Shown here: one piece after another, positions 6,116 through 19,620 of the stretch
Layout: every line of letters starts with the position of its first letter
Numbering within the stretch: the stretch's first letter is position 1
IMG/VR virus record: IMGVR_UViG_3300027631_000101
Coordinates: 1 to 28,408 of that record
Reading direction: 5' to 3' (one strand)
Length of the DNA: 28,408 nucleotides
Source: a virus
Made by a program: the position numbers and the translations under genes
Notes under the pieces: model-generated
Seen by the model: only the letters and a program-made list of their open reading frames with translations
Told to the model about the DNA's origin: nothing
The model's database searches: none

Positions 6116-6170
6116 AATAAACATGTACATTTTATCAAAACTTTGGTAAGGTGGACCTATAATCAAGAAG
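6116..6170 (+). repeat. Duplicated promoter/leader, copy 1
   Basis: This block contains AATAAACATGTACATTTTAT, GGTAAGGTGGA, CTATAAT and AAGAAGGA. The same blocks, in the same order and spacing, recur at 6434-6489. Each copy precedes a different small gene. Confidence 0.75.
6124..6152 (+). promoter_or_regulatory. Early-type promoter, leader copy 1
   Basis: TGTACA (6124-6129), a 17-bp spacer and TAAGGT (6147-6152) are followed by GGACCTATAAT and an AAGAAGGA SD. The block is repeated almost exactly at 6442-6490. It drives the gene at 6181. Confidence 0.5.
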
Positions 6171-9518: not shown

Positions 9519-9910
9519 TTGTTCAGAACGCAGTAAATTGTTTGTCATGTGGAGATCTCATCATCTCTAAACATCGTCATGACTTTGTAAATTGCACTTG
9601 CGGTGCTGTATGGGTAGATGGCGGTCAGGACTACCTGCGTCGTGTAGGTGACTTTGAAAACGCCGTCGACTTGTCTTGGTCACTGCCAGACAAGTTATAT
9701 TTTGATTGTGCTGATGCTGCTGGCCTTGCTATGGATAGCGGTCGTAATACTAAAGGCATCGCCAATGCAGTGATGCGTACTCTTCGTGAAGCTGGTCGAG
9801 TGATCGCCGAAGGTGAACAAAGAATTCTAGCTCATAATCCTCGTATGGATGAGATTATGGTCGAAGAAGCCGATGGCACCATCAATCGTTATAAGAAAGT
9901 TGTAGAATGA
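9515..9910 (+). CDS. Zinc-ribbon protein (DUF7695-like)
   Basis: A 131-aa protein. Residues 9-45 form a zinc ribbon, CLSCG...CTCG (C9, C12, C27, C29), followed by VDGGQDYLRRVG. This ribbon plus the DGGxDYLRR signature recurs in small phage and bacterial proteins (DUF7695-like, from memory). The C-terminal ~70 residues are helical (NAVMRTLREAGRVIAEGEQ) and have no recognised match. Start and stop both overlap neighbours by ATGA, so it sits between the SWIM protein and the ketoacyl synthase in one coupled operon. Confidence 0.75.
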   Translation: MIVQNAVNCLSCGDLIISKHRHDFVNCTCGAVWVDGGQDYLRRVGDFENAVDLSWSLPDKLYFDCADAAGLAMDSGRNTKGIANAVMRTLREAGRVIAEGEQRILAHNPRMDEIMVEEADGTINRYKKVVE

Positions 9911-11016
9911 AAGAAGCATGCATCGTCGGCTTTGGAATGATCGATGCGTTAGGTGATAATCCCATCGATTGTTGGGAGAATATGCTTAATGATCGAGACT
10001 TCCATAAACCTATCGATCCTCATGTTCATGAAGGCCACAATCTTAAAGTTAAGTACGGGTTTTATCCTGAAATTGATATCGATGAAGAATTACAACCTCG
10101 AGCAGTAGCTTATGGTATGCATGCGGTTGAGCAAGCTTTACACATGGCAAATTTGCCGCATTCATCGAATGTAGGTGTCATCTTCTCGACTCTTTTAGGC
10201 GGCAACTCGACAAAAGCAAAGTTAGATGCCGAAGGTCGAAAGATGAAACCAAAACAGATCCTTCGCTCAACGATGGATTATCTCTGCAGTCAAATCTCAA
10301 TTAAGTATGGATATACTGGTATCAATACCATGGTGTATTCTGCTTGTGCTACAGGTTTGGTAAGCATCGAATATGCTATGCGAATGCTCGATGAGTATGA
10401 CTATGTGATCGTAGGCGGTTCTGATGCTGGCGTAAATCACATGGATCTCTACTTCTTCTCGATTATCAAGGCGATCGGTTCGAAGTCGATGCCATTCGAT
10501 AAGAATCGCGACGGTTTTATTATGGGTGAAGGTGCAGGTTGCATCATCCTTCAGTCGAGAGAAAAGGCCGAAGCGATGGGTTCGAAGGTATATGCTCGCA
10601 TCACTGGAGTTTCGAATGCTTCAGATGCACACGATCCGACTGCACCTTCTGGAGCCGGAGCTCGTCTTTGCTTGGAGAAGCTGGATCTCGAAGGAGTCGA
10701 CTCAGTCAACTCGCATGGAACCAGCACTCCACTCGGAGATGTGGTAGAGTATGACGTGGTTCGCGAGTTTACTGATGCACCGATCTATTCCAATAAAGGA
10801 AAAATTGGACATACTTTCGCTGCAGCAGGTGTACTTGAAACAATTTACAGTGTACTGTCTATTCAGAACGGTGTGATTCCTCATACCGCTGGTTGTCAAG
10901 ACACTGATATGGATGTGGTGATGGAGAACATCGAGACAGATGTCAAGAAAGTTCTTGTCAATTCATTTGGATTTGGTGGTAAGTGTTGTTCAATTATTGT
11001 TGAAAAGGAAAAGTAA
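9907..11016 (+). CDS. Beta-ketoacyl-ACP synthase (FabF-like)
   Basis: A 369-aa thiolase-fold condensing enzyme of the KAS I/II type, which extends acyl-ACP with malonyl-ACP. All catalytic parts are present: nucleophile C147 in SACATG, H270 in SHGTSTPLGD, K297 and H302 in SNKGKIGHTF, and the FGFGG loop near 355. The FabF marker FDKNRDGFIMGEGAG is also intact. It is about 40 residues shorter than typical FabF (~412 aa), with the shortfall spread out rather than a deletion. No ACP or other fatty-acid gene is near, so it would use host acyl-ACP. It could change membrane lipids or make a specific acyl product. Its start overlaps the zinc-ribbon gene. Confidence 0.93.
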   Translation: MKEACIVGFGMIDALGDNPIDCWENMLNDRDFHKPIDPHVHEGHNLKVKYGFYPEIDIDEELQPRAVAYGMHAVEQALHMANLPHSSNVGVIFSTLLGGNSTKAKLDAEGRKMKPKQILRSTMDYLCSQISIKYGYTGINTMVYSACATGLVSIEYAMRMLDEYDYVIVGGSDAGVNHMDLYFFSIIKAIGSKSMPFDKNRDGFIMGEGAGCIILQSREKAEAMGSKVYARITGVSNASDAHDPTAPSGAGARLCLEKLDLEGVDSVNSHGTSTPLGDVVEYDVVREFTDAPIYSNKGKIGHTFAAAGVLETIYSVLSIQNGVIPHTAGCQDTDMDVVMENIETDVKKVLVNSFGFGGKCCSIIVEKEK

Positions 11017-14230: not shown

Positions 14231-14233
14231 GCA

Positions 14234-14262
14234 TGTACATTATTTCGAAAACAATATAGAGT
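14234..14262 (+). promoter_or_regulatory. Early-type promoter for the HAD/nucleotidyltransferase trio
   Basis: TGTACA (14234-14239), a 17-bp spacer and TAGAGT (14257-14262). The ATG of the HAD gene is at 14269, where the RNA would start, so the transcript may be leaderless. Confidence 0.45.
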
Positions 14263-14874: not shown

Positions 14875-16040
14875 CAAGTTTTAGAAATTTCCTTGCAGAA
14901 GAGCTTGACGAAACTAAGCTGAAGCATCTTGAGCATGCCGAAGATCACGTGATCAATGCTGGCCATGAAGGCTTTTCTCATGCCTATCACAATCTCAAAG
15001 ATGTGCATGACAGGTTGACAGGCAAGAAGAACGACACAAGAATCACCATGAAGTATGATGGTTCTCCTTCTGTGGTATTCGGTCGTCATCCTGAAACTGG
15101 TCGTTTCTTTGTAGCATCGAAGTCTGCCTTTAACAAGAATCCAAAGATCAACTATACGCTAGAAGATATCGAGCGTAACCATGGTCATGCCCCTGGCCTC
15201 GTATCGAAGCTACGAGCTGCTTTACAGCATCTTCCAAAGGTAACACCAAAGAAGGGTGTTTTCCAAGGCGATATCATGCACACTGCTGAGGACGTGCATG
15301 AATCTGATGGGCGTGTACACTTTACACCTAACACCATCACTTACTCTGCTCCGAAAAATTCAGCACATGGTAAGGCTGCTCTCAACTCGAAGATTGGCGT
15401 AGCTATTCATACCAAGTATAATGGTAAGAACCTCGAGGATATGCAAGCCGAGCACGGCGCTCAGCTAAATGACTTTGGATTGCACAAAGACGTGCATCTG
15501 ATTTCGACAGAACATCATCTCGATAACATCAAGTTCACGCCTCAGAATCGCGAGCGCTTTGCAAAGGCTATGACTGCAGCTGCAGCACATAACAAAAAGG
15601 CAAAGCCTGAAACTTATGAAGCTATCAAAGGCCATGAGATTCCTTTGAAAACTTACATTAATCATACTGTTCGTACTGGTACTAAGCCTAGCGTAGAAGG
15701 TTTCATGAACCACTACATGAAGGCACATCAGAAGAAGATCGAAGGTGTGAAGATGGCAGCATCGAAGGCATCTAAGACTGCTGCGATGGAATCAGACATC
15801 GGTCACGTTCAACGTAATCGTGCTCACTTTGAAAACGTTCTGAACCAGCACAAGCATCTGCAAAAAGCAAAGGATATTCTTGCGCATACGCTGTCAAGCT
15901 CTGCGGAGTTTGATCACAGCATTAACGGCAAGAAGTCGAAGCCTGAAGGATTCGTAGTAGTCAGACATAATCGTCCTACTAAAATCGTAGATCGCGCTGA
16001 ATTCTCGGCTGCCAATTTCAATAAGGTTAAAGCTCAATGA
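14871..16040 (+). CDS. KxDG nucleotidyltransferase-like protein (DUF6267-like)
   Basis: A 389-aa protein with ligase-type nucleotidyltransferase signatures: K61-Y-D-G64 with SPSVVF (motif I), FQGDIM (131-136, motif III-like), PEGFVVV (E359, motif IV) and TKIVD (K371, motif V). This order fits covalent nucleotidyltransferases (DNA/RNA ligases, capping enzymes). T4-like phages carry relatives as DUF6267 (from memory). The N-terminus, MTSFRNFLAEELDE, looks like a T4 capsid-targeting sequence (MKTYQEFIAEA in T4 internal proteins), with a gp21-type site after LAE. A histidine-rich middle separates motifs III and IV. ATGA overlaps couple it to both neighbours. Ligase activity is inferred. Confidence 0.8.
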   Translation: MTSFRNFLAEELDETKLKHLEHAEDHVINAGHEGFSHAYHNLKDVHDRLTGKKNDTRITMKYDGSPSVVFGRHPETGRFFVASKSAFNKNPKINYTLEDIERNHGHAPGLVSKLRAALQHLPKVTPKKGVFQGDIMHTAEDVHESDGRVHFTPNTITYSAPKNSAHGKAALNSKIGVAIHTKYNGKNLEDMQAEHGAQLNDFGLHKDVHLISTEHHLDNIKFTPQNRERFAKAMTAAAAHNKKAKPETYEAIKGHEIPLKTYINHTVRTGTKPSVEGFMNHYMKAHQKKIEGVKMAASKASKTAAMESDIGHVQRNRAHFENVLNQHKHLQKAKDILAHTLSSSAEFDHSINGKKSKPEGFVVVRHNRPTKIVDRAEFSAANFNKVKAQ

Positions 16041-16648
16041 AATCGATTCATATCACACAAGGACGATTCAATCCTGTTCATGCAGGCCACGAGATGGTCG
16101 TCAAGCATGTGATGGCAGCTGCCAAGAAAGAAGGCGCAGATCATAAGATCTTGACGACTGGATCTCATGATGCCAAGAAGAATCCTCTGACACCTGAGCA
16201 GAAGGTCAAGCACCTTTCTCGTGCTGTCAAGGGTGCACATGTAGAGGCGATGACGAAGGAACATCCGACTCTGCTCCATCAGATGTCGAAGCTGCACAAA
16301 GCTGGTTACACACACGTGACTATGCATGTCGGTTCTGATCGTGTTAAAGAGTTTCATGATTTACTTCATAAGTATAACGGTGCAGATATGAAGCACGGTC
16401 ACTACAACTTCAAGAGCATTAAAGTCAAGTCAGTAGGCGGTGAACGTAAAGAAGGCGGAGGTGGAATTGAATCTGCTTCTGGTACGGCTATGCGTAAGCA
16501 CGTTACTGCAGGTGATAAGGAATCATTCCATAAGATGGCACCATCGGGAATGAGTAAAGCCCACAAAGATGAGTTATATCACGATGTCCGCAAAGGCATG
16601 GGTGTGAACGAATCATTCATTGTCAGATTTAAAAACTGGATTAGTTGA
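16037..16648 (+). CDS. HxGH-class nucleotidyltransferase
   Basis: A 203-aa protein of the cytidylyl-/adenylyltransferase superfamily. GRFNPVHAGHE carries the HxGH motif (H15, H18), and SGTAMR (148-153) is the second, ISSTxxR-like motif. Members join a nucleotide to phosphorylated small molecules: NMN (NadM), pantetheine phosphate or glycerol phosphate. NMN adenylyltransferases are known in T4-like phages such as KVP40. The substrate here is not readable from motifs. The C-terminal MGVNESFIVRFKNWIS is an unusual aromatic tail. It is coupled to the preceding KxDG gene by ATGA. Confidence 0.85.
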   Translation: MKSIHITQGRFNPVHAGHEMVVKHVMAAAKKEGADHKILTTGSHDAKKNPLTPEQKVKHLSRAVKGAHVEAMTKEHPTLLHQMSKLHKAGYTHVTMHVGSDRVKEFHDLLHKYNGADMKHGHYNFKSIKVKSVGGERKEGGGGIESASGTAMRKHVTAGDKESFHKMAPSGMSKAHKDELYHDVRKGMGVNESFIVRFKNWIS

Positions 16649-16656
16649 CCTGTTAA

Positions 16657-16733
16657 AGTTTCCTTGTTATAAATAGATTTGCGGTTAGGCTACGGCAATC
16701 CCGTTTGTTTAACAGATAAGCCCAAGGGAAACT
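16657..16733 (+). promoter_or_regulatory. SD-sequestering hairpin flanking a late promoter (gene 16737)
   Basis: AGTTTCCTTG (16657-16666) pairs with CAAGGGAAACT (16723-16733) over 10 bp with one bulged G. The right arm contains the SD AAGGGA of the gene at 16737. The late promoter TATAAATA lies between the arms. RNA read through from upstream should hide the SD; RNA started at the late promoter lacks the left arm and should be translated. Confidence 0.65.
16668..16675 (+). promoter_or_regulatory. Late promoter TATAAATA for the virion block
   Basis: An exact T4 late core in a gap with no other signals, upstream of the large virion-type gene. The expected start is near 16681, giving a leader of about 56 bases with SD AAGGGA at 16724-16729. 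Confidence 0.8.
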
Positions 16734-16736
16734 CTG

Positions 16737-18893
16737 ATGGAAGATAAGAAGAATAAACCGGTTGATACGAAGCAGTTAAAAAAGCCAACCGGCACGTCTG
16801 TAACTGGCAAACCACTTGATGGCATCGAGATCCGTCCTCAGCTCAAAGGTCTCGGCAATCGCCAGCACAACGAGGATACCGTAGTCCTAACTGACACTCT
16901 CGCTGAGAAGAAAGCACTGACACTCGTTCAGCGCCAACGCAGAGCGCGTGCTCTTCGAGCTAAAGAGCCGAAGATGCAGAGAGCCAAAGAAGTTGCTCAA
17001 CACAAACTCGCCTCGGACGAAAAGCTAAAGGCTCGAGCAATTGTCAAAGCAAGAAACATGGTCAAGATGAGGTTTGCAGCTCGGAAGGGAACTCCTTATA
17101 CCGAGCTCACCACATCTGAAAAAATTCAAGTCGATAAGGTAGTCGATAAGAAGGTCAAGCTGATCAGAAGATTAGCTGCTCGCCTTCTACCTGCTCTTCG
17201 TAAAGCAGAAGTCAATCGTCTCGCTTCATTCCAATCGGGATCAAAAATCCAGCACGCGACTGCTGCCCCGGTCAACGAAGAATTCAATACAATCGTAGAG
17301 AGTCTTGACAATAAGACTTCTATGCAACTCGTTGACATTATCAACGATTCTATCGATGCTCTCAACGAGAATAATAACTCGATGGGTATCACGCTGAAGA
17401 GACTGCTAAGCGCTGTCCTTCCAGAAGACGTAGCAACTTCTACACTTATGAAAAAAGCCGAGAAGACCGGCATACCGTTCTCGACCCTCAGAGAGGTGTT
17501 CGAGCGCGGTTCTTTTGCGTGGGAAGACGACGGCAAAACTACGCAAGAACAGTTCTCATTCTCAAGAGTGAATAGCTACATTGCCAAAGGCAGAGCGTGG
17601 ACACTCGATGCAGATCTTCGCGAAGAGAAGGAAGTCAACGACAAGCTCGATAAAATGTTCGAATCCGCTTATCATACTGGCTTGAGTGCTTCGACTGCTA
17701 AGGCACGCGAATCTCACTGGAAAAAGATGGAAAAGTATTCTGATCGAGATCCACGTGCATATCAAGATGCGCCAGGTGACAAGGCAGCTCGTAAGAAAAA
17801 TATGCCTCAATCTGTACATACGAAGAAGTATCATGCGATGTACGGCGAAGAGATCGAGCAGCTGGTCAATGAAGCCTCTGACGGTCTTGCTGCAAAGGCC
17901 AGCAAATCAGGTGTTTCCTTATCTACTCTGAAGAAAGTGTATGCTCGCGGTGTTGCTGCATGGAACAGCGGTCACCGTCCAGGAACTACACCACAACAGT
18001 GGGGTATGGCTCGCGTAAACTCTTACATCACAAAGGGCAAAGGCACTTATCACGGCGCTGATAAGGATCTGCATGAAGATGATGTAAATGAAGGCCTATG
18101 GGCTAACATTCATGCTAAGCGTAAGAGAATTAAAGCTGGATCTGGCGAACGTATGCGTAAGCCTGGATCGAAGGGCGCTCCGACTGCCGCGGGTTTTAGA
18201 TCAGCACAAGAAGCAGTCGAAGATCAAGTAGGCAATCAGATTGCTGATACAGGAAGACATGGTAAAGTAAGATATGTCGGTGTAAGAACTGCTGCTCATA
18301 AAGAAACTGGTACACAAGAGCGTCAAGAAGTTCAGTATATTAAGCGTCATAAGATGCATACGAAAAGAGAGACTGACGCCGATCCGCAACAGATTCGTAT
18401 CGCTCAGGATCAGATCAAAAAGAAAGTGATCGACGAGTCGAACAACACGCCATACGTCAAGCCTTTCACAGAAAAAGGTAGTACAGAACAACGTGGTTGG
18501 AAAGCTTCGAACAAGCATGGCAAGGTAAAGTACTTTGGCATGGACTTCAAGGCTTCTGCACATAAGCATGCTGGAATCAATGAAGATACATCAGCAGATC
18601 GCGAAGTTGGTACGAAATCGCTCGTCAAGAAGTATCAAAAGGAAACTCCTGGACAGAAAAAAGCAGATCTGAACGAGTCGTTCAATATCGAGTTCGCCGC
18701 TGGAATTGGTGTAGGTCTGACTGCTAACGAATGTGGTATCTTCATCAAGCCAGGGTTCGAGATGCATCCTGATGTCGTAGAAGAAGATATCGAAAGAAGA
18801 GGCGACTTCAAGATGGTTAAAGTTCGCACTCCAAAAGGATATGTTTGGAAAAAAGTTCGCCGCGAAGTTGATATCGAGAGGGACGCAGAATGA
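16737..18893 (+). CDS. Large basic repeat protein, probable internal virion protein (DUF5824-like)
   Basis: A 718-aa highly basic protein. Residues about 55-165 are a helical lysine/arginine-rich region (RRARALRAKEPKMQRAKEVA) typical of virion proteins of T4-like phages (from memory). Two copies of a DUF5824-like domain follow at about 238-285 and 384-434, each ending RVNSYI-KG. Another short repeat, HGKV(R/K)Y(V/F)G, is at 508 and 594. The C-terminus is acidic, then basic. LAE and LNES motifs could be sites for the prohead protease. It is expressed late, behind TATAAATA and the SD-hiding hairpin. Packaging in the head is inferred from charge, repeats and neighbours. Confidence 0.8.
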   Translation: MEDKKNKPVDTKQLKKPTGTSVTGKPLDGIEIRPQLKGLGNRQHNEDTVVLTDTLAEKKALTLVQRQRRARALRAKEPKMQRAKEVAQHKLASDEKLKARAIVKARNMVKMRFAARKGTPYTELTTSEKIQVDKVVDKKVKLIRRLAARLLPALRKAEVNRLASFQSGSKIQHATAAPVNEEFNTIVESLDNKTSMQLVDIINDSIDALNENNNSMGITLKRLLSAVLPEDVATSTLMKKAEKTGIPFSTLREVFERGSFAWEDDGKTTQEQFSFSRVNSYIAKGRAWTLDADLREEKEVNDKLDKMFESAYHTGLSASTAKARESHWKKMEKYSDRDPRAYQDAPGDKAARKKNMPQSVHTKKYHAMYGEEIEQLVNEASDGLAAKASKSGVSLSTLKKVYARGVAAWNSGHRPGTTPQQWGMARVNSYITKGKGTYHGADKDLHEDDVNEGLWANIHAKRKRIKAGSGERMRKPGSKGAPTAAGFRSAQEAVEDQVGNQIADTGRHGKVRYVGVRTAAHKETGTQERQEVQYIKRHKMHTKRETDADPQQIRIAQDQIKKKVIDESNNTPYVKPFTEKGSTEQRGWKASNKHGKVKYFGMDFKASAHKHAGINEDTSADREVGTKSLVKKYQKETPGQKKADLNESFNIEFAAGIGVGLTANECGIFIKPGFEMHPDVVEEDIERRGDFKMVKVRTPKGYVWKKVRREVDIERDAE

Positions 18894-19183
18894 TCGGATT
18901 TAAGGAATTCATCACTGAGCGTGGCGAAGATTCGAAAGGTCACTTCATCGCCACCGAGAAGGGTGCAGGTATGACAGCGAAAGGTGTAAAAGCCTATCGT
19001 GCCAAGAATCCTGGATCAAAGCTTCAGACAGCTGTCACTGGCAAAGTAAAGCCTGGATCTAAAGATGCAGGTAGACGTAAGTCTTTCTGCGCTCGTATGA
19101 GTGGAGTCAAAGGTCCGATGAAAGATGAAAAAGGTAGACCGACTCGTAAAGCAATGTCATTAAGAAGATGGAAGTGTAACTAA
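18890..19183 (+). CDS. DUF6321-like small basic protein with capsid-targeting-like N-terminus
   Basis: A 97-aa, very basic protein. GAGMTAKGVKAYRAKNPGSK and SFCARMSGVKGPMKDEKGRP are the signature of DUF6321, a small family common in phages (from memory). It starts MIGFKEFITERGED, which fits the capsid-targeting pattern of T4 internal proteins and has an ITE cleavage-like site. The basic core would suit DNA binding inside the head. It overlaps the preceding gene by ATGA, and its stop adjoins the dps start. Function of the family is not established to my knowledge. Confidence 0.85.
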   Translation: MIGFKEFITERGEDSKGHFIATEKGAGMTAKGVKAYRAKNPGSKLQTAVTGKVKPGSKDAGRRKSFCARMSGVKGPMKDEKGRPTRKAMSLRRWKCN

Positions 19184-19620
19184 TGGAAGAGATTACAAAC
19201 CCTTTAAAGGTCGCGTTTGCAGACACCTATGCACTTTACGTGAAGGCTCAGAACTATCATTGGAATGTCGAAGGACCGATGTTCCCGATGTATCATGAAT
19301 TTTTTGGTAATATCTATGAAGAAGTTGGTGGTGCTATTGATCGTTTTGCCGAAGAGATTCGAGCCCAAAAATCTTATGCTCCGGCATCGTTCGGAAGATT
19401 CAATGAACTATCAACAATTGAAGATGAATCTCTTATTCAGTTACTTCCAATAACCATGGTAACTAATCTTTTCGAAGATAATAATCGAGTTCTTGCTTCT
19501 CTTCAACTTGCAAGAGATGCAGCAGACAAATACAATCAAAACGGTCTTGTTAACTTCCTTGAAGAGAGACTCGATCAGCACAACAAACACGCATGGATGC
19601 TCCGCGCATCGATGAAATAA
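19183..19620 (+). CDS. dps: Dps-family ferritin-like protein
   Basis: A 145-aa four-helix protein of the Dps family, which forms 12-subunit shells that oxidise and store iron and protect DNA. NYHWNVEGPMFPMYHEFF gives H26 and H38, and IDRFAEEIRAQ gives D53 and E57. The spacing (12, 27 and 31 residues from H26) is the same as in E. coli Dps H51/H63/D78/E82, so the ferroxidase site is complete. The lysine-rich N-terminal DNA-binding tail of E. coli Dps is missing. It lies within late virion-type genes, so protection of phage DNA or packaging is possible. Start and stop are tight against its neighbours. Confidence 0.93.
   Translation: MEEITNPLKVAFADTYALYVKAQNYHWNVEGPMFPMYHEFFGNIYEEVGGAIDRFAEEIRAQKSYAPASFGRFNELSTIEDESLIQLLPITMVTNLFEDNNRVLASLQLARDAADKYNQNGLVNFLEERLDQHNKHAWMLRASMK

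Follow-up and report, generated by a model that had tools for sequence, protein, structure and literature searches.

Predicted tandem hairpins between a late promoter and the start codon of one gene in many T4-like phages

Results

The gene and its surroundings

The window analyzed here is the whole 28,408-nt stretch, a 28-kb fragment of a phage genome, and the parts of the locus under study all lie on its + strand. The gene under study encodes a protein of 718 amino acids (16737–18893, with its ATG at 16737 read from the sequence) that contains a basic N-terminal domain and two DUF5824 stretches. The basic domain (amino acids 60–169; 16914–17243) has a net charge of +21, is helical in its AlphaFold2 model (mean pLDDT 90), and is sometimes fused to a cytidyltransferase domain. 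PDB searches with the domain returned no significant match. A first-pass annotation of the window had described the gene as virion-type. This description is unsupported: the matches are to DUF5824, phrog_23027 and cytidyltransferase-linked families, there are no marks of a virion component among the family matches, and the phiM12 homologue is annotated as hypothetical only.

Just upstream is a cytidyltransferase-like gene (16037–16648), recognized by its family matches and followed in many relatives by a different extra gene. The interval between 16648 and 16668 is an insertion hot spot, occupied in relatives by different genes of ~0.7–1.5 kb (compare L003, L010, L030, L036 and L061). In the closest relatives, which we call clade i, the cytidyltransferase gene is directly followed by the promoter and leader described below. 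Elsewhere, this T4-like phage window carries a beta-ketoacyl synthase gene (9907–11016; Pfam ketoacyl-synt N and C domains) and a gene for a ferritin-like (Dps-type) protein (19183–19620) with the PHROGs annotation DNA-binding.

A T4-type late promoter octamer, TATAAATA, is found at 16668–16675, and the RNA is predicted to start near 16681. The octamer occurs three times in the window compared with 1.05 expected, and here it stands at the fixed distance from the predicted RNA start that marks a candidate late promoter of the T4 type. Stenotrophomonas phage DLP6, which also carries the leader described here, has gp55 and gp33 (PMC5349666). The Shine-Dalgarno (SD) sequence AAGGGA is at 16724–16729 and is conserved in relatives, where it shows small changes (TAGGGA, AAGGAA, AAGGUA).

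A long helix over the start site

The first-pass annotation had proposed that AGTTTCCTTG (16657–16666) pairs with CAAGGGAAACT (16723–16733) over ten base pairs with one bulge, that the right arm contains the SD, and that the late promoter lies in the loop. On re-reading the sequence, the positions of both arms, the octamer, the SD and the ATG all proved exact, and checking the pairing recovered the ten pairs and the bulge, with the SD inside the right arm. The helix is longer than proposed. The left strand spans 16650–16666, with CTGTTA at 16650–16655 preceding AGTTTCCTTG, and its partner is 16723–16740. Since 16650–16655 pairs with 16735–16740, the AUG is covered as well as the SD. The left strand lies upstream of the late promoter and is thus present only in read-through RNA. 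An early-type promoter had been suggested at 14234, and the repeated motif CATGTACATT is indeed present there (14232–14243), as well as at 6122 and 6440; it is a possible source of the read-through RNA. We also observed that the intergenic motif AAATAARCATGTACATTWT is repeated at 6122, 6440 and 14232 and occurs more often in the window than expected (27 matches when up to two mismatches are allowed, 10.8 expected). This motif is probably part of an early-type promoter.

In T4, the genes e, soc, 49 and I-TevI carry a helix that hides the SD and has a late promoter inside it (PMC3014915, PMC2988022). The geometry seen here is identical to that of e, soc and I-TevI, as the first-pass annotation held, with the late promoter between the arms and the SD (here also the AUG) in the right arm. 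As in those cases the long RNA is closed and the short RNA open, here by prediction. However, the folding energy of the long helix is unexceptional (z −0.84, 36 of 200 shuffles as good; in a second test z −1.38, 17 of 200 shuffles as good), so the case must rest on a comparison of relatives.

Relatives were gathered in two scans of viral contigs, one for the upstream cytidyltransferase gene (112) and one for the 718-aa gene (39). The clade i helix has 16 bp and covers the SD and AUG. Five of the six left-strand substitutions at paired positions keep the pairing, being pyrimidine changes opposite G. Transitions are favored anyway, so these changes are only suggestive of a helix. A second lineage, clade ii, has the left strand AGAGTTTCYTT, which would pair over 11–12 bp. 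The pairing of both arms is retained in these two clades only. The left arm is missing from roughly half of the contexts, some of them in close relatives. In L090 and L098, for example, the N-termini are 94–96% identical and the promoter, SD and gene are the same, yet there is no left arm, and the same is true of many others. The first-pass annotation had suggested comparing the arms in relatives. In clade i most left-strand changes keep the pairing, but the arm itself is absent from many contexts, and the claim of a conserved timing switch is not supported.

Complementarity between the upstream flank and the SD is above chance overall in 21 independent upstream contexts (Fisher p 0.0012 against shuffles and 1e-5 against windows taken elsewhere on the same contigs), and few contexts are individually complementary (3/21 and 6/21 below 0.05). 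The predicted accessibility of the SD in the nearest relative is 0.24 in the long RNA and 0.40 in the short RNA, and in sampled members of clade ii it is 0.01–0.32 in the long RNA compared with 0.38–0.58 in the short RNA. To this extent modeling agrees with the earlier proposal that the SD is closed in the long RNA. In many other contexts there is no change in predicted accessibility between the two. When the folds were imposed, the left arm with hairpin 1 (−11.9 kcal/mol) was barely below hairpins 1 and 2 together (−11.4 kcal/mol), a figure that leaves out six extra pairs strengthening the long helix.

The long start-hiding hairpin is thus real but restricted to some relatives of this virus. 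Clades i and ii could plausibly have a switch of the proposed kind, but it is not general, and the left arm appears to be a lineage-specific lock like that of T4 genes e and soc rather than a conserved one. It could be argued that such a timing lock, of the type known from T4 e, soc and I-TevI, is all there is, and that the tandem hairpins described below have no role of their own. The helices of clades i and ii, the pairing kept by five of six changes, the lower predicted accessibility in their long RNAs and the overall excess of complementarity would all fit this reading. We nevertheless consider it unlikely, given the frequent absence of the left arm. It also explains neither the conservation of the leader where that arm is missing nor the covarying hairpins inside the late RNA.

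Conservation of the late promoter and leader

Upstream of the homologues of the 718-aa gene, TATAAATA and the leader are nearly identical, whereas the sequence before TATAAATA varies with the upstream gene. The octamer is retained in 50 of 51 distinct combinations of upstream sequence and leader, and the remaining one has CATAAATA. Strong conservation begins ~6 nt downstream of TATAAATA. Across 53 representatives, mean column identity is 98.3% in the 26-nt block that contains hairpin 2 and forms the last 26 nt before the AUG, compared with 64% in the first 60 nt of the reading frame and 54% in the 26 nt before the promoter. The right arm of the long helix does not vary because it doubles as the 3' half of hairpin 2, a structure contained entirely within the late RNA.

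This pattern could arise at the DNA level if the promoter and leader served as a recombination block for exchange of the upstream gene. Different genes are found between the cytidyltransferase gene and the promoter, and the junction lies just upstream of TATAAATA. However, compensating stem changes need RNA pairing, and the covariation reported in the next section already disfavors this explanation, which we regard as highly improbable.

In a separate set of relatives (group C: L181, L199 and L186), we observed hairpin 2 only, preceded by ACTAAATAG in place of TATAAATA. The leader in this group is flanked by a cytidyltransferase-like gene on one side and a domain-gene homologue on the other.

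Predicted structure of the tandem hairpins

The late RNA from 16681 to the AUG contains two copies of one hairpin. The unit consists of a stem, UAAG, two base pairs, a YNMG-type tetraloop, AAAC, and the other strand of the stem. Hairpin 1 (16681–16704) reads GCGG-UUAG-GC-UACG-GC-AAUC-CCGU and is matched by our covariance model R1 at 16679–16706 (34.3 bits, E 2e-8). Hairpin 2 (16713–16736) reads CAGA-UAAG-CC-CAAG-GG-AAAC-UCUG and is matched at 16711–16738 (38.2 bits, E 1e-9). Hairpin 2 ends directly before the AUG and encloses the SD, which lies in its loop region, and CAAGGGAAACT forms its 3' part. The core of hairpin 1 is at a fixed spacing from TATAAATA in most of the 51 combinations.

The stems vary among relatives. 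For hairpin 1 the variants include CGG/CCG, UGG/CCA, CAG/CUG and UAG/CUA, among others. Hairpin 2 has the stems CAGA/UCUG, CGGA/UCCG and AAAGA/UCUUU, with CC/GG, UC/GA or AC/GU as apical pairs. Over 30 units, 90.6% of cells are paired, compared with 60.3% after shuffling and at most 48% with slid partners, and two-sided changes are found in all six pairs. The hairpin 1 class alone is 96.5% paired (76.2% shuffled; two-sided changes in 5/6 pairs) and the hairpin 2 class alone 98.3% (86.9% shuffled; 3/6 pairs). A further 23 units outside the model are 97.8% paired (70.7% shuffled; 6/6 pairs), although most were found with the model and hence lean towards it. These counts supersede a swap test of the hairpin 1 stem made before the full model (p 3.5e-4). 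The units were cut by hand from short alignments. To hold register in alignments A4 and A8, L061, L184, L197, L270, L295, L298, L299 and L329 were shortened by one or two unpaired letters of the internal loop, and one letter of L194 was mistyped outside the counted pairs; alignment A2, without such trimming, is still 90.6% paired.

Taken singly, the hairpins have modest free energies (−3 to −10 kcal/mol). The predicted minimum-energy fold of hairpin 2 is the same as the model, and nested folding of the late RNA of the window favors a different pairing for hairpin 1. A candidate H-type pseudoknot between GGCU (16688–16691) and AGCC (16719–16722) was rejected, as substitutions in hairpin 2 are matched by compensating ones within that same hairpin (L209, L270, L272 and L280). 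Two unusual units were observed in L240 (2737–2799), the first with GG/CC apical pairs and the second with CGAG/CUCG and a long 5' loop like that of DLP6.

Hairpins with UNCG or YNMG tetraloops are a general RNA motif. The loops found here, C(UACG)G, C(UUCG)G, C(UAAG)G and C(CAAG)G, closed mostly by C-G, resemble them, but the leader unit differs in adding a conserved 4+4 internal loop and in its fixed genetic position. Because YNMG/UUCG-type loops are stable caps and hairpin 1 starts at or just past the predicted +1 in most contexts, the hairpins could be a structured 5' terminus that shields the late mRNA from decay. Stability alone would require neither the conserved UAAG and AAAC internal loop, nor a second copy around the SD, nor restriction to one gene per genome, and we think this role decidedly unlikely.

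Distribution of the leader unit

Searched with model R1, the window has exactly two strong units. In the whole records of 14 phages, strong units occur solely at this gene in one or two copies, and the other matches are weak (E 0.14–0.49). More distant phages were brought in by pattern and domain searches, and the collections searched consist mostly of fragments of uncultured viruses. The unit is present in uncultured T4-like phages and in the cultured DLP6, which has one unit (21.1 bits, E 1e-4). The same hairpin was seen by eye in Sinorhizobium phages phiM12, phiM7 and phiN3, where its 5' internal loop is longer and the model misses it. Masking of the SD is not universal, since in DLP6 and further distant members a separate SD follows downstream of the hairpin. 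A recognizable unit is absent at some domain genes (L320, L354, Melnitz, OC and HTVC008M). No curated Rfam family matches at or near its gathering score, and nucleotide BLAST against isolate phages gave no match or chance matches only. A scan of a genome collection returned a single match, in a Bacteroidales MAG, which we take as chance.

The leader unit is linked to the basic domain across phages. All 53 of the domain loci tested first have a unit upstream, although this count is partly circular, as the search seeds came from leader-bearing loci. Row 10 of the protein alignment A1, which went into one search seed and two of the domain scans, ran past the sequence available for it; each locus was confirmed against row 1, the window sequence, and row 10 was left out of alignment A9. 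In a more distant set of 34 domain loci, the model finds the unit in 24, and weaker matches and inspection bring this to about 28; several of the remaining loci are truncated.

In a set of relatives designated group B (L182, L184, L187, L188, L189, L191, L193, L194, L195, L197, L209, L270, L276 and L280), we observed that the leader is followed by a conserved reading frame of 33–40 codons, in most cases by a terminator-like hairpin and a T run, and then by the domain gene. The group-B RNA may form an H-type pseudoknot (GCGAC/GUUGC and ACAAC/GUUGU, in L182, L195 and L209, crossing UUCUCC/GGAGAA).

A conserved unpaired internal loop within a covarying frame, in front of genes linked to nucleotidyltransferase domains, is also what might be expected of a small element that binds a ligand or a host factor, either in the manner of a riboswitch or as the target of a host RNA-binding protein. 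However, the unit is very small and has no Rfam match, it is confined to one gene per phage, and the hosts differ (Stenotrophomonas, Sinorhizobium). We therefore consider such an element very unlikely.

Discussion

The lasting feature of this locus is a pair of small matching hairpins, predicted between a late promoter and the start codon of the same gene in many T4-like phages. The leader sequence, its conservation and covariation, its association with the domain gene and its low copy number are established. Judged from these comparisons, the element is old and specific, and it stands before a gene with one basic helical domain. The association falls short of proof that the domain binds the hairpin. 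With fixed unpaired letters, restriction to one gene and a basic domain in the product, a protein-binding operator is the simplest reading.

We propose that RNA from TATAAATA would start near 16681 and fold into the two tandem hairpins, the second enclosing the SD and ending at the AUG. A protein may recognize the hairpins, the simplest candidate being the gene's own product through its basic domain, and binding would then limit translation in the manner of an autogenous operator, as T4 gp32 and gp43 do on their own mRNAs. In the read-through RNA of clades i and ii, the long helix could form in place of hairpin 2, whose 3' half it uses. In the lineage of this virus, the left strand would pair with both the SD and the AUG and break hairpin 2, adding an early lock like that of T4 genes e and soc. 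The two layers of control are compatible, the operator being old and the early lock younger. The leader probably controls the timing and amount of protein made from this gene. That it is a translation-control element of tandem hairpins in the late mRNA, perhaps bound by its own basic product and here combined with an early-RNA lock, seems to us about an even prospect.

Two groups of T4 elements bear on this proposal. Compared with e, soc, 49 and I-TevI, the lock here is found in some lineages only, and its right arm is also part of a conserved late-RNA hairpin, whereas the T4 cases are described without one (PMC3014915, PMC2988022). The operator hairpin of T4 gene 43 and the leader pseudoknot of gene 32 are autogenous translational operators (PMC3014915). 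Like them, the element described here is a conserved structured mRNA leader, predicted close to where ribosomes bind the message of a single phage gene; that the gene product binds it is an analogy that we propose. It differs from both in its two tandem copies, YNMG-type loops, UAAG/AAAC internal loop and association with a late gene, and from gene 32 in that no pseudoknot is supported in this leader.

According to a review of T4, no riboswitch or trans-acting small RNA has been functionally characterized in that phage, and the autogenous operators covered are those of the replication genes 32 and 43 (PMC3014915). We tentatively suggest that the hairpins represent an undescribed family of phage RNA operators, possible though short of probable. 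In each member, a late mRNA would begin with one or two hairpins built as stem-UAAG-2 bp-YNMG-2 bp-AAAC-stem, which the encoded basic helical domain would recognize. The family would extend over T4-like phages of unrelated hosts, and in some lineages the operator hairpin would be invaded by an early-RNA lock. If true, this would be a widespread new case, a covarying leader that accompanies one late gene in T4-like phages, with DLP6, phiM12, phiM7 and phiN3 as cultured examples, and it would give a function to an uncharacterized basic domain. The locus also suggests that what looks like a conserved switch can be layered on top of a different conserved RNA structure.
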